Positions 15,316 to 23,275 of a stretch of 64,000 nt of DNA are shown piece by piece; within the stretch, counting starts at the first letter, position 1, and every line of letters begins with the position of its first letter. The notes beneath the pieces were generated by a model. That model was not told where the DNA came from. It saw only the letters and a list, made by a program, of their open reading frames with translations, and did no database searches. The translations under genes were made by a program, and so were the position numbers. This DNA is from Teichococcus aerophilus (lineage in GTDB: Bacteria; Pseudomonadota; Alphaproteobacteria; Acetobacterales; Acetobacteraceae), in assembly GCF_014490485.1 (NCBI RefSeq), contig NZ_JACTVA010000007.1:62001-126000 (forward strand), written 5' to 3'.

Positions 15316-16371
15316 ATGAGCCAACCGATCGCGGAGGTTCCGGCAGGGTATGGCGCCTGGCTGGCCGGGCTAAAGTCGCAGATCCGCGACGCCCGGCTGC
15401 GCGCCGCCCTCTCCGTCAATGCCGAGCTGATCGCACTCTACTGGCGCATAGGGCGGGAGATCCTGGCGCGGCAGGAGCGGGACGGCTGGGGTGCCCGGGT
15501 CATCGACCGCCTGGCCACCGACCTGCGCGCCGAGTTCGCCGGGCTGCGCGGCTTCTCGCGCGCCAACCTACTCTACATGCGCGCCTTCGCCGAGGCATGG
15601 CCGGAGGAGGATCTCGTCCAACGGATCGTTGGACGATTGCCCTGGGGCCAGAATATCGAGCTGCTGAGCAAGCTGAAGGACCAGGCCGCGCGGCTCTGGT
15701 ACGCCGAGGCAACGCTGGAACACGGCTGGAGCCGCGCCGTGCTGGCCGCCCAGATCCAGACCGGGCTGCGGGAACGGCAGGGCAGGGCCATCACCAATTT
15801 CGACCGGGTCCTGCCCCCGGCGGCGTCGGACCTGGCACAGCAGATCTTGAAGGACCCCTACCAGTTCGACTTCCTCTCCCTGACCGCCGAGACGCGGGAG
15901 CGGGAGCTGGAACAGGCGCTGGTGGCGCGGGTGAAGGACCTGCTGCTGGAGATGGGGAAGGGCTTCGCCTTCATCGGCAGCCAGCACCACCTGGAGGTCG
16001 GCGGGCAGGATTGGTACGTGGACCTGCTGTTCTACCACCGCCGCCTGCGCTGCCTGGTGGCCGTGGACCTGAAGGTCGGCCCCTTCCAGCCCGAGCATGC
16101 CGGCAAGATGAACTTCTACCTGGCCGCCCTGGATGACCGGGACCGGGAGCCGGGCGACAATCCCAGCATCGGCCTCATCCTGTGCCGCGAGCGCAACCGG
16201 GTGGTGGTGGAGTACGCGTTGCGCAGCGTCGGCAGCCCCATCGGCATCGCCGAATACCGGTTGCTGGTGGCGGATGCGCTGCCCGCCGGGCTGGCGCAAT
16301 CGCTGCCCACACCCGAGGAACTGGAATCCGGCATGACGCTGCCGGACGATGAGGACGGCGAGGCCGTCTGA
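15316..16371 (+). CDS. DUF1016 / YhcG-type PD-(D/E)XK nuclease
   Basis: A 351-aa protein. Residues ~10-160 form the helical DUF1016 N-terminal domain (LIALYWRIGREILARQ, RGFSRANLLYMRAFAE, LPWGQNIELLSKLKD); residues ~180-330 form the nuclease domain with Asp236 in WYVDLLFYHR and the Asp251-x-Lys253 pair in VAVDLKVGPF, then FQPEHAGKMNFYL. This is the complete YhcG layout. In other genomes it is found alone or inside type I restriction loci; here no restriction genes flank it. A strong GGAGG lies ahead of the ATG. Function: probable DNA nuclease (family inference). Confidence 0.9.
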   Translation: MSQPIAEVPAGYGAWLAGLKSQIRDARLRAALSVNAELIALYWRIGREILARQERDGWGARVIDRLATDLRAEFAGLRGFSRANLLYMRAFAEAWPEEDLVQRIVGRLPWGQNIELLSKLKDQAARLWYAEATLEHGWSRAVLAAQIQTGLRERQGRAITNFDRVLPPAASDLAQQILKDPYQFDFLSLTAETRERELEQALVARVKDLLLEMGKGFAFIGSQHHLEVGGQDWYVDLLFYHRRLRCLVAVDLKVGPFQPEHAGKMNFYLAALDDRDREPGDNPSIGLILCRERNRVVVEYALRSVGSPIGIAEYRLLVADALPAGLAQSLPTPEELESGMTLPDDEDGEAV

Positions 16372-16427
16372 GCCTTCGCAGCCAGCTACACGAATTTTCC
16401 CCGGCATCAATCCAGCCTTGGCAAGCC

Positions 16428-16452
16428 CATACGACCTATGTATGGTAGTATG
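16428..16452. promoter_or_regulatory. candidate GntR operator upstream of the GntR gene
   Basis: An inverted repeat CATACGACC-7 bases-GGTAGTATG (8 of 9 paired) lies 44 bases before the GntR start. Its right half, ATGGTAGTATGCA (16442-16454), matches ATGGTAGAATGCA at 21872-21884 in 12 of 13 positions. The half-sites fit the palindromic operators of FCD-type GntR regulators. It suggests autoregulation. Confidence 0.55.
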
Positions 16453-16495
16453 CAAAGCGCCGGACCCTATCCGGCCAGAGACCGGGAGCCCGTCC

Positions 16496-17212
16496 ATGCC
16501 GACCTTGCAAGAGGTGCTGACACCCCTCGATCCCTCGGATCAGTCCGGCCCCGTCGGCCTTGGCATTGCCAGGCTGCTGCGGGGCCGCATCGTCACCAAT
16601 CAGTTGCAACCTGGCCAGGCGCTGCCGGAGGCAGAGGTCGCCAGCCTGCTCGGCGTCAGCCGCCAGCCGGTGCGGGAAGCGCTGATCCGCCTGTCCGAGG
16701 GCGGGCTGGTGCGCATCCTGCCGCAGCGGGGCACGCTGGTCACGCGCATCTCCCGCGCGGGGGTGGAAGGCGGCCGCTTCGTGCGGGATGCGGTGGAACG
16801 CGCCGTGGTGCGCCGTGCCGCCGCCCATGCCGGGCCGGAGGCAACCGATGCCATGCACCGGGTGATCGATGCGCAGGAAGCCGCGCTGAAGGCCGAGGAC
16901 CACCCGGCCTTCCTGGCGCTGGATGACGAGTTGCATGGCGCCTTCGCCGCCGCCATGGGCGAGCCCGGCGCCTGGGCCGCGCTGGGCGAGGTGAAGCTGC
17001 AGATGGACCGGGTCCGCTACCTCAGCATCCCCGACGCCACGCCCAGCACCCTGCTGATCGCGCAGCACCGCGCCATCGTCGACGCCATCCAACGCCGCGA
17101 TGCCGATGCGGCGGAGGAGGCGATGCGCCTGCACCTGTCCGAGGTGCTCTCCGCCCTGCCGAAGCTGGCTGAGCGCTTCCCCGACCATTTCGAGACGAAA
17201 GGCGCCGCATGA
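16496..17212 (+). CDS. GntR-family regulator, FadR/FCD subfamily
   Basis: A 238-aa transcription factor. The N-terminal winged helix is clear (LRGRIVTNQLQPGQALPEAEVASLLGVSRQPVREALIRLSEGGLV..., about 28-85), and the C-terminal helical FCD domain (about 95-225) contains the usual metal/ligand-site residues in LDDELHGAF and HRAIVDAI. Such regulators respond to sugar acids or other carboxylates. Its stop overlaps the dehydrogenase start (ATGA), placing it at the head of the sugar-acid operon. The operator-like repeats at 16428 and 21863 are likely its targets. Confidence 0.92.
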   Translation: MPTLQEVLTPLDPSDQSGPVGLGIARLLRGRIVTNQLQPGQALPEAEVASLLGVSRQPVREALIRLSEGGLVRILPQRGTLVTRISRAGVEGGRFVRDAVERAVVRRAAAHAGPEATDAMHRVIDAQEAALKAEDHPAFLALDDELHGAFAAAMGEPGAWAALGEVKLQMDRVRYLSIPDATPSTLLIAQHRAIVDAIQRRDADAAEEAMRLHLSEVLSALPKLAERFPDHFETKGAA

Positions 17213-18684
17213 CCGCCCCCCGATTGAACGCGGCCCTGCTGCCGTCCCTGAAGCCGGGCATTCGCCGGCCGGGCTATGACCGCGCGGCACTGGGCATCGG
17301 CATCGTGCATCTGGGCCTCGGCGCGTTCCACCGCGCACACCAGGCCGTCTATACCGAGGAGCGGCTGGAAGCGGGGGAGACCGGCTGGGGCATCAGCGGG
17401 CTCAGCCTGCGCTCGCCCGCGGTGCGAGACGCGCTGGCGCCGCAGGATGGCCTGTACACCGTGCTGACCCGCGCCCCTGGCGGCGACGAGGCCCGCATCA
17501 TCGGCAGCGTGGTCGAAGCGCTGACGGTGCCGGAGCAGCCAGAGCTGGCGCTACGCCGGCTGGCGGCGCCGCGGACGCGCATCATCAGCCTGACCGTGAC
17601 GGAGAAGGCCTATTGCCGCGATGCCAACGGTGCACTGGATGAATCGCATTCCGACATCCGGGCCGACCTTGCCGGCGGCGGCTTCCCGCGCAGCGTGCCC
17701 GGCCTGCTGGCGGCGGCATTGCGCGCGCGGGCCGACAGCGGCGCCGGCGGCGTGACGCTGATGACCTGCGACAACCTGCCGGATAACGGCGGCACGCTGG
17801 CGCGCGTGCTGGGGCGCTTCGTCGCGCTGCGGGACCCCGGGCTGGCCGGCTGGATGGCCGAGCATGTCAGCTTCCCCGCCACCATGGTGGACCGCATCGT
17901 CCCCGCCACCACGGAGGCCGAGCGCGAAGCCATCGCCGCGCTGGGCTACACCGATGCCTGGCCGGTGGTGGCCGAACCGTTCTCCCAATGGGTGGTGGAG
18001 GACCGGTTCGTGAATGGCCGCCCGCGCTGGGAAGCAGCCGGCGCGCTGATGGTCGGCGATGTCCATGCCTACGAACTGATGAAGCTGCGCTGCCTGAACG
18101 GCGCGCATTCCTCGCTGGCCTATCTCGGCGCCGTCGCCGGCATCCCCACGGTGAGCGAGGCGATGGCCGAGCCGCTGCTGGCCGCTTTCCTGCAGAAGCT
18201 GTGGACGCAGGACGTCATCCCCACCCTGCCGCCGGTGCCGGGCATCGACCTGCCTGGATATACCGCGCAGCTTGAGGACCGCTTCCGCAACCCGGCCATC
18301 CGCCACCGGCTGTTGCAGATCGCCATGGATGGTTCGCAGAAGCTGCCGCAGCGCCTGTTGCGCCCGGCGGCCGAGCGGCTGGCGCAGGGCGCGGTGCCCG
18401 CCGCCATCGCCCTGGCCGTCGCCGCCTGGATGCGCTTCCTGCTGGGCGAGGATGAGACCGGCGGCACCCATGCCATCGACGACCCGATGGGCACGAAGCT
18501 CGCCGAAGTGGCACGCGGCGCCGGGCGGGATGCCGATGCGCTCTCCGCCGCATTGTTCGCGCTGCCGGAGGTGTTCGACCCGTCCCTGGCCGCGGATGCC
18601 GGCTTCCGTGCCGCGGTACGGGACGCGCTGGCCACGCTGCTGCGGGACGGCGTCCGCCCCGCGCTGCGCGCCGCCCTCGCCTGA
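17209..18684 (+). CDS. uxuB: mannitol dehydrogenase-family oxidoreductase, probable fructuronate reductase
   Basis: A 491-aa NAD(H)-dependent polyol dehydrogenase. The N-terminal Rossmann motif is IVHLGLGAFHRAHQA, a mid-motif is TMTCDNLPDNG-like (LMTCDNLPDNGG), and the active-site lysine helix is YELMKLRCLNGAHSSLAYLG. In this family the closest pathway partners are fructuronate reductase (UxuB), tagaturonate reductase and mannitol 2-dehydrogenase. Coupling to a mannonate dehydratase 30 bases downstream argues for D-fructuronate to D-mannonate (EC 1.1.1.57). It starts inside the GntR stop codon. Confidence 0.85.
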   Translation: MTAPRLNAALLPSLKPGIRRPGYDRAALGIGIVHLGLGAFHRAHQAVYTEERLEAGETGWGISGLSLRSPAVRDALAPQDGLYTVLTRAPGGDEARIIGSVVEALTVPEQPELALRRLAAPRTRIISLTVTEKAYCRDANGALDESHSDIRADLAGGGFPRSVPGLLAAALRARADSGAGGVTLMTCDNLPDNGGTLARVLGRFVALRDPGLAGWMAEHVSFPATMVDRIVPATTEAEREAIAALGYTDAWPVVAEPFSQWVVEDRFVNGRPRWEAAGALMVGDVHAYELMKLRCLNGAHSSLAYLGAVAGIPTVSEAMAEPLLAAFLQKLWTQDVIPTLPPVPGIDLPGYTAQLEDRFRNPAIRHRLLQIAMDGSQKLPQRLLRPAAERLAQGAVPAAIALAVAAWMRFLLGEDETGGTHAIDDPMGTKLAEVARGAGRDADALSAALFALPEVFDPSLAADAGFRAAVRDALATLLRDGVRPALRAALA

Positions 18685-18714
18685 AACACGACATCAACAG
18701 AGGAGACACCGACC

Positions 18715-19923
18715 ATGGAACAGACCTGGCGCTGGTTCGGCCCCGATGACAGCGTGACGCTGGAGCATGTGAAGCAGGCCGGCGCGACCGGCATCGTCAG
18801 CGCGCTGCACCACATGAACCAGGGCCGCGCCTGGCCCGAGGACGAGGTGCTGAAGCGCAAGAAGATCATCGAGGATGCCGGGCTGCGCTGGTCGGTGGTC
18901 GAGAGCATCGCCGTGCATGAGGACCTGAAGACCCGCACGGGTGACTACAAGAACCTGATCGAGCAGTACAAGGGTTCCATCCGCGCCGTGGCACGGGCGG
19001 GCGTGAAGACCATCTGCTACAACTTCATGGCCATCACCGACTGGACGCGCACCGACCTGCACTACCGCCTGCCGACCGGCGGCCTGGCGCTGCGCTTCGA
19101 TTGGACCGACATCGCCACCTACGACCTGTTCATCCTGAAGCGCCCGGGCGCCGAGGCCGACCACCCCGAGGCCCGCCGCAAGGCCGCCGAGGCGCGCTTC
19201 AGAACGATGTCGGAGAGCGACCAGTCAAACCTGGAAAAGCTGATGATCGACTGGCTGCCGGCCCGCGAATTCGTCTACGACCGTGCTGGATTCCAGAAGA
19301 TGCTGGATATCTACAAGGATATCGGCGAGGACGGCGTCCGCGACCACATGATCCGCTTTGTGCGCGAGGTGTCTGAGACGGCGGCCGAGGAAGGCGCGCG
19401 GCTGTGCATCCACCCCGATGACCCCTCCTTCCCCATCTTCGGCATGCCGCGCGTGATGTCCACCGCCGCCGATGCGCGGGCGCTGATGGACGCGGTGCCG
19501 GAGCCCGCCAGCGGCCTGACCTATTGCACCGGCGCGTTCGGCAGCAACCGTGCCAACGACATGGTGGCGATGGCGAAGGAATTCGGCCCGCGCATCCACT
19601 TCGCCCACCTGCGCAACGTGACGATCGAGGAGGACGGCTCCTTCTACGAGGCCGACCACCTGGATGGCAGCACCGACATGGTCGGCTGCGTCGCCGCCCT
19701 GATGGCGGAGGAGGACCGCCGCCGCGCCGAAGGCCGCGCGGATGCCGAGATCCCGATGCGCCCGGACCACGGCCATTTGCTGGTGGATGACATCGAGAGC
19801 GTGAAGAACGGCGTAAAGGTCAACCCGGGCTATTCCTGCATCGGCCGCCTGAAGGGCCTGGCGGAACTGCGCGGCGTGATGCGCACGGTCGAGGCCTTCC
19901 GCGACCACCGCGTCAGAGCGTGA
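18715..19923 (+). CDS. uxuA: mannonate dehydratase
   Basis: A 402-aa enzyme that converts D-mannonate to 2-keto-3-deoxy-D-gluconate (EC 4.2.1.8). It shows the UxuA pattern from [19 protein letters not shown], through [53 protein letters not shown] (metal-site residues), [10 protein letters not shown] and MRPDHGHLL near the end. Length is normal for the family. The ribosome site GAGGAG lies 12 bases before the ATG. The last codons and stop overlap a repeat element (19915-20016). No KDG kinase or KDPG aldolase is in the window. Confidence 0.95.
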
Positions 19924-20016
19924 TGGCTTGAGGTGACATCACCGAAAGCCTGAATCACGCGACCAAACAGAGGCGTAGAGCATGATGCGTGAACGAATGT
20001 GATCGCATCGTGCTCT
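19915..20016. repeat. composite palindromic repeat, copy A
   Basis: A 102-base element made of two hairpins. Hairpin 1 stacks GCGTGAT/ATCACGC, GGCTT/AAGCC and GGTGA-CA-TCACC; hairpin 2 is AGAGCATGATGCG / CGCATCGTGCTCT with a 14-base loop and one mismatch. A diverged copy lies at 53235-53337; the first 30 bases match in 27. It begins inside the last codons of uxuA and includes its stop. It resembles the short dispersed palindromic elements of alphaproteobacteria. Confidence 0.7.
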
Positions 20017-20056
20017 CGCTGAACCCGACCCATGGTGGCGGCGTTATGCCGCCACC

Positions 20057-20776
20057 ATGCAACGCCTCTTCATCGGCACCGCCGGCTGGAACATCCCGTC
20101 GCAGCATGCTGCGGCGTTTCCGCCGGACGGCTCGCACCTCGCCCGCTATGCCGCGCGGCTGCCGGCGGTCGAGATCAATTCTTCCTTCTACCGCCCGCAC
20201 CGCCCGGCCACCTATGCCCGCTGGGCGGCGGCGGTGCCGGAGGAGTTCCGCTTCGCGGTGAAGTTACCGAAGGAGATCAGCCACACCCTGCGGCTGGTCG
20301 GGGCCGAGGCCGCCTTGGCGCGATTCCTGGACGAGGCCGGGCAGCTCGGTCCGAAGCTGGGCCCACTATTGCTGCAACTACCGCCCAGCCTGGGCTTCGA
20401 TGCGGCGACAGCCGATGCCTTCCTGGCCCTGCTGCGCCAACGCCATGACGGCGCCGTGGTGTGCGAGCCGCGCCACCCCAGCTGGTTCGGCGGCGAGGGG
20501 GATGCGCTGCTCACCCGGCACCGCGTCGCCCGCGTCGGCGCCGACCCGCCGCCGGCACCAGGTGCCGCCCGCCCCGGCGGCTGGCCGGGCCTGCGTTACT
20601 TCCGGCTGCACGGCGCGCCGCGCATGTACTACTCGCCCTATGCCCCGGAGCGCCTGGCCAGGCTGGCGGCGCTGCTGCGCCAGCCCGGTTCGCCCGAGAC
20701 CTGGGTGATCTTCGACAACACGGCGGAGGGCGCCGCCTGGGCGGACGCCCTCTCCCTGTTGGAGCAGGCCGGCTAG
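20057..20776 (+). CDS. DUF72 family protein (YecE-like)
   Basis: A 239-aa protein with the DUF72 signature: FIGTAGWNIPSQHAA at the start, LPAVEINSSFYRPH, FAVKLPKEISHT, LLLQLPPSLGF, and the C-terminal FRLHGAPRMYYSPY and VIFDNTAEGAAWADAL. The fold is a TIM-barrel-like domain. Its biochemical role is not established. It follows the repeat element after uxuA, on the same strand, and ends 22 bases before the convergent dehydrogenase gene. It is probably not part of the sugar-acid pathway. Confidence 0.9.
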   Translation: MQRLFIGTAGWNIPSQHAAAFPPDGSHLARYAARLPAVEINSSFYRPHRPATYARWAAAVPEEFRFAVKLPKEISHTLRLVGAEAALARFLDEAGQLGPKLGPLLLQLPPSLGFDAATADAFLALLRQRHDGAVVCEPRHPSWFGGEGDALLTRHRVARVGADPPPAPGAARPGGWPGLRYFRLHGAPRMYYSPYAPERLARLAALLRQPGSPETWVIFDNTAEGAAWADALSLLEQAG

Positions 20777-20798
20777 CGCATGATGGCTCCCATCTGGC

Positions 20799-21836
20799 TC
20801 AGAACTGGATCACCACCTTCAGGTTGTGCTCCCGGTCCTTCGCCGCGGCGAAGGCCTCGCTGGCGCGCTCGATCGGATAGGTGCCGGTCAGCAACGGGCG
20901 GATATCGATCAGCCTCTTCTCCAGGCAGGTCACCGCATCGCCGAACACGTCGCCGAAGCGGAAGGCCCCGCGCAGGTCGATCTCCCGCGCCATGACGCGG
21001 TTAGCCATCACCGGCGTCTCGCCCCCGGGCAGGGAGCCGACCTGCACGACGATACCGCCGGCCCGCACCGCCAGCAGCGCCGCGTTCAGCCCGGCCGAGG
21101 CGCCCGAGGCCTCGAACACTACGTCGTAGCCACCACTGGCCTTGGCGGCCTCCAGCAATTCCCCGGTGCCCTGGCCGACATTGAAGGTCTCGTCGGCACC
21201 CATGCGGCGCGCGGCGTCCAGCGGGGCATCGATCATGTCCGTCATCGCCAAATGCGCGGCGCCGCCCCGGCGGGCGGCCAGCATGACCAGCTGGCCGATC
21301 GGCCCCGCGCCGGTCACCAGCACCCGGCTGCCCATCAGGTTGCCGGCCCGGTGCGCGGCGTGCAGCGCGACGGAGAGCGGCTCGGCGAAGGCCATCTCCT
21401 CGAACGGCAGTTCGGCCGAGACGGGGAAGCACTGGATGTCCCGCACCGTGGTGTATTCGGCGAAGCCGCCTTGCATGTGGGGGAACTTGCTGGCCGAGCC
21501 CATGAAGAACACGTTCTCGCACAGATTAGGCCGCCCCTCCCGGCAGCGCGGGCAATGGCCGCAATTCCGCCCGGGGTTGACGCAGACACGCTGGCCGGCG
21601 GCGACGCGGGTCACCTCCGCGCCCACCTCGGCCACTTCGCCGGCGAATTCATGGCCGGGGACCAGCGGCTCCCGGATCACAAAATCGCCAACGCGGCCGT
21701 GGAAGAAGTAATGCAGGTCGGAGCCGCAGATGCCGCCGGCGCGGACGCGCAGGCGCACGTCATGCGGGCCAAGGGGGGCTTCGGGGCGGTCCTCGATCCG
21801 CAGATCCTGGGCCGAGTGCAGGACGCAAGCGCGCAT
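20799..21836 (-). CDS. idnD: zinc-dependent alcohol dehydrogenase, L-idonate/L-gulonate 5-dehydrogenase type
   Basis: A 345-aa medium-chain dehydrogenase. Catalytic zinc ligands are Cys37 (GGICGSDLHYF), His62 and Glu63 (PGHEF); the structural zinc is held by Cys92, Cys95, Cys98 and Cys106 (NCGHCPRC...LC). The coenzyme site is TGAGPIGQL. Length and the FFHGRVGDF segment fit L-idonate 5-dehydrogenase. Linked to uxuB and uxuA, an L-gulonate 5-dehydrogenase making D-fructuronate is equally possible. The start is 27 bases from the candidate operator shared with the divergent transporter. Confidence 0.88.
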   Translation of the reverse strand: MRACVLHSAQDLRIEDRPEAPLGPHDVRLRVRAGGICGSDLHYFFHGRVGDFVIREPLVPGHEFAGEVAEVGAEVTRVAAGQRVCVNPGRNCGHCPRCREGRPNLCENVFFMGSASKFPHMQGGFAEYTTVRDIQCFPVSAELPFEEMAFAEPLSVALHAAHRAGNLMGSRVLVTGAGPIGQLVMLAARRGGAAHLAMTDMIDAPLDAARRMGADETFNVGQGTGELLEAAKASGGYDVVFEASGASAGLNAALLAVRAGGIVVQVGSLPGGETPVMANRVMAREIDLRGAFRFGDVFGDAVTCLEKRLIDIRPLLTGTYPIERASEAFAAAKDREHNLKVVIQF

Positions 21837-21862
21837 GACGGTTTTTCCTCCGCAGTCATTGA

Positions 21863-21882
21863 CATGCTACCATGGTAGAATG
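21863..21882. promoter_or_regulatory. candidate GntR operator between divergent dehydrogenase and transporter genes
   Basis: CATGCTACCATGGTAGAATG is a 20-base inverted repeat with a perfect 12-base core (CTACCATGGTAG, 21867-21878). It sits 27 bases upstream of the dehydrogenase start and ~134 bases upstream of the transporter start. Its right half matches the repeat upstream of the GntR gene. The position fits control of both genes by the GntR protein. Confidence 0.65.
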
Positions 21883-22015
21883 CACTTTCGGTTTCAATAA
21901 AGGAACCCCGGGGCACCGGTGGGCCGCTCACCGGAGGAAAACACCGGCCCTGAGGGCCCGATGCAGTCCGGCGACCGCACCCCCGCCCCCTATTGGCAGC
22001 GGGAGTACGCGCTTC

Positions 22016-23275
22016 ATGTTCAGCAAGCGACGGCGTCTGGTCATCTTCCTGCTCTTCCTGGCGGGTATCATCAACTACATGGACCGCAGCGCGCTTTCGA
22101 TCGCGGCGCCAGCGGTTTCGGCGGATTTGGGCCTCTCGCCGTCCGAGATGGGGCTGGTCTTCAGCAGCTTCTTCTTCGGCTACGCCATCTTCAACTTCAT
22201 CGGCGGCTATATGTCGGACCGCGCCGGTCCGCACCGCATCTTCTCCCTCTCCATGCTGGTCTGGTCCGCTTTCTGCGCCTTCACCGGCATGGCGGCCGGC
22301 TTCGTCTCCATGCTGCTGATCCGCATCGGCTTCGGCGTGGGGGAGGGGCCGTTCTCGGCCACCGCCAACAAGATGGTCAGCAACTGGTTCCCCCGGCGGG
22401 AAGCCGGCTCGGCCATCGGCATCGCCAATGCCGGCACGCCGCTGGGCGGCGCCATCGCCGGGCCGCTGGTGGGCTTCTGCGTGGTGCAGTTCGGCTGGCG
22501 CGTCTCCTTCTTCGTCGTCGCGGCCATCGGCTTCATCTGGCTGCTGTTCTGGCTGTTCCTGGCCAGCAACGACCCGCAGAAGGACCCCCGCGTCACGGTG
22601 GATGAGCGTGCCGAGATCGCTGCCGACCGCCCCGCGCCCGTGGTGCGCGGCAGCGATGGCGTCGGCCTCGGCACCTATCTGAAGAACCCGGTGGTGCTGG
22701 CCACCGCCTTCGCCTTCTTCGGCTACAACTACATCCTGTTCTTCTTCCTGACCTGGTTCCCCAGCTACCTGACCAATGCGCGCGGCCTCAGCCTGCATGA
22801 CATGAGCCTGGTGACGGTCATTCCCTGGATCCTGGGCTGCATCGGCCTGCTGGGCAGCGGCTTCCTGACCGACTTCATCTACAAGCGCACCGGCAACGCG
22901 CTGTTCTCCCGCAAGATCGTGCTGACCGTCTGCCTGGGCATCGCCGCCGTCTCCATCATCCTGGCCGGCTTCATGACCACGGCGACCAGCGCGGTGACCC
23001 TGGTGGCCATCACCGTCTTCGCCCTGTACCTGACCGGCGCCATCTACTGGGCCATCGTGCAGGACGTGGTGCCCGGCCACTATGTCGGCGGCGTCGGCGG
23101 CTTCGTGCACGGGCTGGCCAACACGGCGGGCATCATCGGCCCGGCGGTCACCGGTTTCATCGTGCAGGGCACCGGCTCCTTCACCTCGGCCTTCATCCTG
23201 GCCGGCGGCATCGCCGTGCTGGGCGTGATCGCGGTGCTGGTCTTCGTCCGCGCGCCGCGCGAGCAGGCGGCCTGA
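22016..23275 (+). CDS. MFS transporter, anion:cation symporter (hexuronate/sugar-acid) group
   Basis: A 419-aa transporter with 12 predicted helices. The N-terminal INYMDRSALSIAAPAVSADLG segment and the loop GGYMSDRAGPHRIF (motif A) match the ACS family that includes ExuT, GudP and DgoT; WFPRREAGSAIGIANAG is another family feature. The likely substrate is a sugar acid (gulonate, idonate or a hexuronate), given its neighbours. I chose the ATG at 22016 with GGGAG upstream; the frame is open to 21872 but the extra part is unlike a transporter. Confidence 0.88.
   Translation: MFSKRRRLVIFLLFLAGIINYMDRSALSIAAPAVSADLGLSPSEMGLVFSSFFFGYAIFNFIGGYMSDRAGPHRIFSLSMLVWSAFCAFTGMAAGFVSMLLIRIGFGVGEGPFSATANKMVSNWFPRREAGSAIGIANAGTPLGGAIAGPLVGFCVVQFGWRVSFFVVAAIGFIWLLFWLFLASNDPQKDPRVTVDERAEIAADRPAPVVRGSDGVGLGTYLKNPVVLATAFAFFGYNYILFFFLTWFPSYLTNARGLSLHDMSLVTVIPWILGCIGLLGSGFLTDFIYKRTGNALFSRKIVLTVCLGIAAVSIILAGFMTTATSAVTLVAITVFALYLTGAIYWAIVQDVVPGHYVGGVGGFVHGLANTAGIIGPAVTGFIVQGTGSFTSAFILAGGIAVLGVIAVLVFVRAPREQAA

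Follow-up and report, generated by a model that had tools for sequence, protein, structure and literature searches.

A predicted shared operator ties a GntR regulator operon to a divergent dehydrogenase and transporter pair in a putative L-gulonate locus of Teichococcus aerophilus

The locus and its two operator sites

The stretch of Teichococcus aerophilus DNA analysed here (the window; 64,000 nucleotides of contig NZ_JACTVA010000007.1, C108:62001-126000 in our numbering of a 5.66 Mb genome placed in one genus with genome G006) carries a predicted sugar-acid gene cluster under the apparent control of a GntR regulator. The regulator gene, gntR (16496..17212, + strand), encodes a protein of 238 amino acids with Pfam GntR and FCD domains above cut-off. 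It is followed on the same strand by a gene for a uxuB-like fructuronate reductase (17209..18684), whose start overlaps the gntR stop (ATGA) and whose product has Pfam Mannitol_dh domains, and by uxuA, for mannonate dehydratase (18715..19923). Further on, a zinc dehydrogenase gene labelled 'idnD' (20799..21836, - strand) diverges from the gene for a major facilitator superfamily (MFS) sugar-acid transporter (22016..23275, + strand). The start of the MFS gene was taken at 22016, and an ATG at 21872, which lies inside an operator, was not taken as a start. We found that gntR-uxuB-uxuA and the divergent idnD/MFS pair share an operator, kept in relatives, that links them, as the original prediction had proposed for this DNA.

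Inspection of the window sequence placed the two 13-mers of that prediction where they had been reported, ATGGTAGTATGCA at 16442-16454 and ATGGTAGAATGCA at 21872-21884. The distance from the first of them to gntR had been given as 44 bases, and should read 41 bases between site and start, with the start taken as 16496. The first 13-mer is part of operator O1 (TATGTATGGTAGTATGCAAA; 16437..16456, + strand), which contains a bounded 17-base motif that also stands upstream of gntR in relatives. O1 reads GTATG-GTA-GTATG, its GTATG boxes at 16440-16444 and 16448-16452 being 8 apart. The second belongs to a double operator, O2 (21862..21884, assigned to neither strand), in which ATGGTAGAATGCA on the + strand is joined by ATGGTAGCATGT on the - strand at 21862-21873, and in which ATG triplets at 21864, 21872 and 21880 are spaced by 8. 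An inverted repeat had been claimed for this second site, and CATGCTACCATGGTAGAATG at 21863-21882 does pair at 9 of 10 arm positions. This 20-base inverted repeat is made up of two core units that face opposite ways, with their overlap at the centre.

Taken alone, the window offers weak evidence for the repeat: it holds three matches at no more than 2 mismatches against 0.69 expected, and three were reached by 7 of 100 shuffles. Exact ATGGTAGNATGC has two copies in the genome, both at the O1 and O2 promoters, and at up to one mismatch it occupies 23 places compared with 11 for the reversed control. The 14-mer GTATGGTAGNATGC, scanned over the whole genome at up to 3 mismatches, gave 431 places against 417 for the reversed control; the O1 copy was exact and the next-best places, O2 included, had 2 mismatches. 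A wider regulon was not seen in this genome, GTATGGTAGNATGC showing, O1 and O2 apart, no excess over the reversed control (the other one-mismatch places of the shorter pattern were not inspected singly). Across 118 genomes, the exact 12-mer ATGGTAGNATRC was found at 45 places, fewer than the 52 of its reversed control, which argues against enrichment. The shuffles and the unenriched short pattern are what a chance resemblance of two 13-mers would predict; conservation in relatives contradicts it, and we judge it already refuted by the 20-genome and 78-locus tests described below, so that its probability is close to nil. The sites are considered real because of their position and conservation, as frequency proves nothing here, and on these grounds the two-site repeat is confirmed.

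O1 coincides with a promoter-like sequence. A TTGGCA resembling a -35 box of the gntR promoter (16418..16423, + strand) stands 17 bases from TATGGT (16441-16446), a hexamer inside O1 that doubles as a -10-like box, and together they match at 9 of 12 positions. This TTGGCA-17-TATGGT pair (16418-16446) was the only sigma-70-like match in 16370-22060, where shuffles gave a mean of 0.2. In ten relatives, the best -35 match 16-18 bases from TATGGT or TATAGT averaged 3.4 of 6; at other offsets the average was 2.25 (standard deviation 0.26), and 3.4 was reached in 0 of 2000 cases. Five of the ten (L067, L068, L069, L074, and L075) had a -35 match of just 1-3 of 6. Since the -10 lies in the operator, a bound regulator would be expected to occlude RNA polymerase and hence to repress, and repression would likely be relieved by a sugar acid. 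That the one sigma-70-like match has its -10 in the motif could also mean that the motif is a promoter element, TATGGT serving as its -10, or the site of some other regulator, and thus uninformative on the GntR protein. A strongly conserved motif of 17 bases that occurs in both orientations to gntR and tracks regulator orthology is hardly a plain promoter element, and we regard this explanation as very improbable. At the edge of O2, an overlapping TTGACA (21859..21864, + strand), present in all seven aligned gaps, is a possible -35 of the MFS gene, for which the sigma-70-like promoter scan found no -10 partner.

Conservation in close and distant relatives

The original prediction was to be refuted by absence of the palindrome upstream of orthologous genes, and the comparison did not refute a shared operator: with no more than 3 mismatches, TATGGTAGTATGC stands in the 200 bp ahead of gntR in 15 of the 20 orthologue loci. 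An alignment of seven idnD-MFS gaps, including that of the window, showed a conserved block, TTGACATnCTACCATnnTAGnATnCA, within an otherwise variable gap, and O2 was kept in all seven. Apart from the operator block, little of the gap ahead of 22016 is conserved; the starts assigned there in relatives derive from matches to a query beginning at 22016. We also scanned a chosen set of 20 genomes, of which ten have a close GntR orthologue and ten do not, defining MFS orthologues by E <= 1e-120. The double site (at up to 3 mismatches) occurred at one place per genome in the same 7 of 20 genomes that have an MFS orthologue, all of which also hold a GntR orthologue, and both strands match there because the site is an inverted repeat. 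The other 13 genomes had neither MFS orthologue nor double site, and a reversed double-site control was found in 0 of 20. Two of the seven sites, those of G010 and G011, lie at 3 mismatches, the limit of the scan. As the seven gaps were known beforehand, what the scan adds is the uniqueness of the site per genome and its absence elsewhere.

Paralogous regulators with 35-41% identity (L038-L053) lacked the site at up to one mismatch within 1.5 kb in all 16 cases. Of three loci intermediate between this group and the clear orthologues, one, L036 (42%), has the site at one mismatch before its regulator, and the other two, L035 and L037, have none at up to one mismatch.

For more distant loci, a 20-column weight matrix was built from ten close gntR promoters and applied to 78 test loci, mostly of about 20 kb, which were picked by regulator protein sequence alone as the best 80 of a longer match list less two: L112, which shares its genome with training locus L066, and L187, whose regulator is at a contig end. 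The best site of the whole locus fell before gntR in 46 of the 78, compared with a mean of 4.5 and a maximum of 22 for 300 column-permuted matrices. At 14 bits or more there were 97 site entries (overlaps and both strands counted), 87 of them within -40..450 bp of the start of gntR or of a gene for a binding protein of a tripartite ATP-independent periplasmic (TRAP) transporter, ManD, UxuB or IdnD, in 60 of the 78 loci. One hundred permuted matrices at the same threshold gave a mean of 14.8 entries, of which on average 2.6, and at most 9, were near those starts. When overlapping entries were merged, 71 of 79 places were near those starts. Names among the test loci include Halomonas, Chromohalobacter, Azospirillum, Microvirga, Paraburkholderia, Caballeronia, Pantoea, and Rahnella, which we take to represent Alpha-, Beta-, and Gammaproteobacteria.

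The genes next to the operator vary among these loci. UxuA or ManD was present in 19 of the 20 orthologue loci (all except L069) and in 66 of the 78 test loci. In Paraburkholderia, Caballeronia, and Burkholderia (L138, L139, L149, L151, L152, L154, L155, L163, and L167), the operator has UxuB on one side and an enolase-type enzyme on the other; the L138 enzyme passes the NCBIfam model for D-mannonate dehydratase ManD at 732.6 bits (cut-off 550). Other test loci have the operator ahead of TRAP binding-protein genes, and L077 has it ahead of an open reading frame with an ATP-binding cassette (ABC) transporter ATPase domain. Judged by gene content, the operator goes with the pathway even where components have been exchanged, as with ManD standing in for UxuA.

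Shape of the operator and the regulator that may read it

The consensus of 49 sites that adjoin gntR in the 78 test loci and score at least 12 bits (not dereplicated) is aCTnGTATGGTAGTATGs, also written aCT(a/g)GTATGGTAGTATG(c/g), an asymmetric and sharply bounded unit of 17 bases. When the 39 distinct best sites were compared with themselves, the within-core match was 0.62 at a direct shift of 8 and 0.46 at a shift of 5, and the best inverted centres reached 0.49 and 0.45; the shift of 8 was found by looking and is a description, not a formal test. The unit is therefore best described as an 8-base direct repeat, more repeat than plain palindrome. Extra units 8 bases off were seen in L072, L147, L161, L191, and seven Microvirga loci, and the motif profile did not show a third box as a general feature.

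Sites of the FadR subfamily are usually palindromes with TKGT/ACMA boxes, with NanR and BioR as exceptions, and in 13 orthologous groups a weaker additional box sits 7-12 bases off the centre (PMC4494728). The operator might accordingly be a classical palindrome of this kind, occupied by one symmetric dimer and centred at the TA of GGTAGT (CTTGTATGgtagCATACAAG). The L066 site is near to a 20-base palindrome, those of L074 and L075 less so, and for O1 itself the original prediction had proposed arms spaced by seven bases. These arms, CATACGACC (16428-16436) and GGTAGTATG (16444-16452), are indeed present with their 7-base spacer; the spaced palindrome CATACGACC-N7-GGTAGTATG was rejected as a candidate, its left arm being missing in the nine other close relatives aligned. 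Across the 39 sites, cores match better at a direct shift of 8 than about either inverted centre, and a TKGT-N2/3-ACMA palindrome is absent from the consensus of the 49 sites. We consider the single symmetric palindrome rather unlikely.

Some paralogous FCD regulators of about 37-39% identity (L038, L041, and L043, also L040 and L045) carry ATACTAGTAT upstream and not ATGGTAGTAT. ATACTAGTAT is a perfect palindrome made from the TAGTAT box, which seems to be used inverted in those paralogues and direct in the window's group. In Methylocapsa, a regulator of 56% identity (L113) has GGATACTAGTATCC upstream.

The regulator itself belongs to the FadR (FCD) subfamily of GntR proteins, with Pfam scores of 61.8 bits for PF00392 and 87.5 bits for PF07729, both over cut-off. 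Its AlphaFold2 model has a pLDDT (the model's own confidence score) of 89.9, and the nearest solved structure, 7u5q, superposes with a TM score of 0.84, a fold that fits FCD regulators. Four residues, D143, H147, H191, and H213, are invariant in 21 aligned regulator sequences; they are the putative Asp/His metal ligands of the FCD domain, a site present in many, not all, members. Named families were not matched at their cut-offs: the NanR model NF003011 scored 70.7 bits (cut-off 260), the E. coli UxuR model NF007588 35 bits (cut-off 442), and PhnR (TIGR03338), the best-scoring of them, 96.5 bits (cut-off 271.5). E. coli LgoR was rejected as a named relative, as BLASTP gave no match between the two regulators at 1e-5, and the E. 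coli lgo gaps held no comparable operator at up to 4 mismatches. By the tests run, then, the regulator is not a NanR, UxuR, PhnR or LgoR protein.

The pathway, its predicted regulation and known systems

UxuA scores 470.5 bits for TIGR00695 (cut-off 199.55). The uxuB product is best matched by PRK15037, fructuronate reductase, at 384.7 bits, under the cut-off of 603; the 'idnD' product scores 318.2 bits for the NCBIfam L-idonate 5-dehydrogenase model (cut-off 469), with 6dkh as its best PDB sequence match; and the MFS protein has 339 bits for TIGR00893 (cut-off 395). A search for UxaC (PF02614) gave 0 matches in the genome, which is 99.91% complete, and was positive in 7 of 14 control genomes. 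Fructuronate for UxuB should thus come from elsewhere. In Haemophilus influenzae, L-gulonate is catabolised via GulD, UxuB, and UxuA, with L-gulonate or D-mannonate as inducers of the genes, and GulD mutants do not grow on L-gulonate (PMC5788505); likewise, a Halomonas TRAP/GntR locus has been assigned to L-gulonate after Chromohalobacter salexigens (PMC5507952). Since a UxaC match is lacking and these L-gulonate precedents exist, the 'idnD' product is probably an L-gulonate 5-dehydrogenase by pathway logic and 'idnD' a misnomer, and the best reading of the cluster would be L-gulonate to fructuronate to mannonate to 2-keto-3-deoxygluconate.

A different assignment starts from the gene names. 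UxuA and UxuB serve the D-glucuronate route in E. coli, and the best model for the dehydrogenase is L-idonate 5-dehydrogenase, so the cluster could be read as a classical UxuR-type operon for the hexuronate D-glucuronate, to which a branch for L-idonate is attached. Against this, no match to UxaC was obtained in the genome, the regulator reaches 35 bits where the UxuR cut-off is 442, and 5-ketogluconate from L-idonate does not feed UxuB. Such an operon is improbable here.

Several neighbours lie outside this scheme. The DUF72 gene that follows uxuA (20057..20776) was found among the loci of the 20 relatives only in L063-L065. A YhcG-type PDDEXK nuclease gene (15316-16371) ends 125 bp before the gntR start; it had no match at 1e-20 in the 20 relatives' loci and therefore looks like a recent neighbour. 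In E. coli, yhcG adjoins the NanR-controlled nan operon, which is probably a coincidence. Beyond the MFS gene, L074 (15926-17392) and L075 (15974-17398, both in gntR-orientation coordinates) have a second UxuB-like dehydrogenase gene, whose product is about 42% identical to the UxuB of the window.

Very probably, the GntR protein is a local repressor acting at both promoters, so that the L-gulonate pathway is induced as a whole when a sugar acid is present. The FCD regulator encoded at 16496-17212 would bind the unit ATGGTAGNATRC at two promoters: at that of gntR-uxuB-uxuA, one unit would cover the -10-like box, and between idnD and the MFS gene two overlapping, inverted units would face one gene each. 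Without substrate, RNA polymerase would be blocked at both. One of the pathway's sugar acids (L-gulonate, D-fructuronate or D-mannonate) would bind the FCD domain and release the repressor, and transporter, first dehydrogenase, UxuB, and UxuA would be induced together, carrying L-gulonate to 2-keto-3-deoxygluconate. What the analysis shows are the sites, their conservation and placement, the gene content, and the lack of a UxaC match; the regulator as the binder, as well as repression, effector, and substrate, are inferred.

A number of observations weigh against this model or narrow it. In the orthologue loci, the operator of L076 and L077 lies elsewhere in the cluster and not before gntR, and L073, L081, and L082 had no operator at up to 3 mismatches. 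G002, G006, and G013 keep the gntR operator and have neither MFS orthologue nor double site; coupling of the two blocks is therefore not universal. In the test loci, the reversed matrix still put its top site before gntR in 15 of 78, and one of the 300 permuted matrices reached 22; reversed and permuted matrices score high because the motif is partly self-similar. Eighteen of the 78 had no 14-bit site near the start of any of the genes queried, among them both Chromohalobacter loci (L121 and L128), with a site of 10.9 bits only. Looked for afterwards, exact CTNGTATGGTAG was present within 150 bp before gntR in nine of these eighteen (L121, L122, L128, L131, L136, L140, L146, L164, and L171), the right part of the motif having drifted, and was not found within that distance in the remaining nine. 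Many Halomonas-type loci have the site in the orientation that points away from gntR. The loci are also not independent, as 62 best sites amount to 39 distinct 20-mers. Finally, the dehydrogenase, UxuB, and the MFS protein all score under their NCBIfam cut-offs, so their substrates are not settled.

A more far-reaching idea is put forward tentatively, as possible and no more than that. A regulator spread over several proteobacterial classes may read an 8-base direct repeat, unlike most FCD repressors, meeting a pair of boxes at its own promoter and, at the divergent transporter promoter, a pseudo-dyad array of three boxes whose overlapping units would be filled cooperatively. As the operator stays nearly unchanged while MFS, TRAP, and ABC transporters and UxuA and ManD are exchanged, the cis-element and not gene order would then define the pathway.

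A literature search returned no GntR paper with ATACTAGTAT or TACTAGTA; supplementary tables and RegPrecise were outside its scope, and the operator may be there. For ATGGTAGTAT or ATACTACCAT, no such regulator appeared by title among the matches listed, and further searches brought up no title on this operator. Within the literature searched, the operator and its reach appear new to us, and the kind of system is already known and ordinary. The work offers a predicted operator for a regulator group of three proteobacterial classes, from which the regulon could be predicted in other genomes, and corrects a probable misannotation, that of idnD.

Among known systems, E. coli LgoR, for L-galactonate, is likewise a GntR regulator accompanied by genes for a dehydrogenase and an MFS transporter. 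UxuR, named for uxuA and uxuB, and ExuR of E. coli are also GntR regulators of hexuronate genes; they differ from the present case in that the window's genome has no UxaC match. According to PMC4494728, their sites are palindromic with GT-N2/3-AC spacing, unlike the window operator. Also close are the L-gulonate loci of C. salexigens and Halomonas (GntR and TRAP) and of H. influenzae (gulPQM-gulD-uxuB-uxuA), which share the same dehydrogenase-UxuB-UxuA logic together with a transporter and a regulator. The Halomonas and C. marismortui loci have a related GntR protein (~45-52% identity) beside such genes, many with the same operator; Halomonas-type dehydrogenases are only ~30% identical to the window's 'idnD' product. 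The window has the content expected of an L-gulonate regulon, namely dehydrogenase, UxuB, UxuA (or ManD), transporter, GntR protein, and one predicted operator. It differs in having an MFS transporter in place of the TRAP transporter of the C. salexigens, Halomonas, and H. influenzae loci, and in the division of its genes between two transcription units that the operator connects. A likeness for the operator itself is offered by NanR, an FCD GntR repressor of a sugar-acid pathway with a direct-repeat operator, (GGTATA)3, whose boxes in E. coli are 9 and 8 apart compared with 8 in the window. The box sequence and the pathway are different, and the window's regulator is not filed as a NanR member. 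NanR dimers bind their repeats asymmetrically and cooperatively (PMC8012715), and the operator described here may provide a second case, beside NanR, for asking how an FCD dimer with two-fold symmetry recognises a direct repeat.

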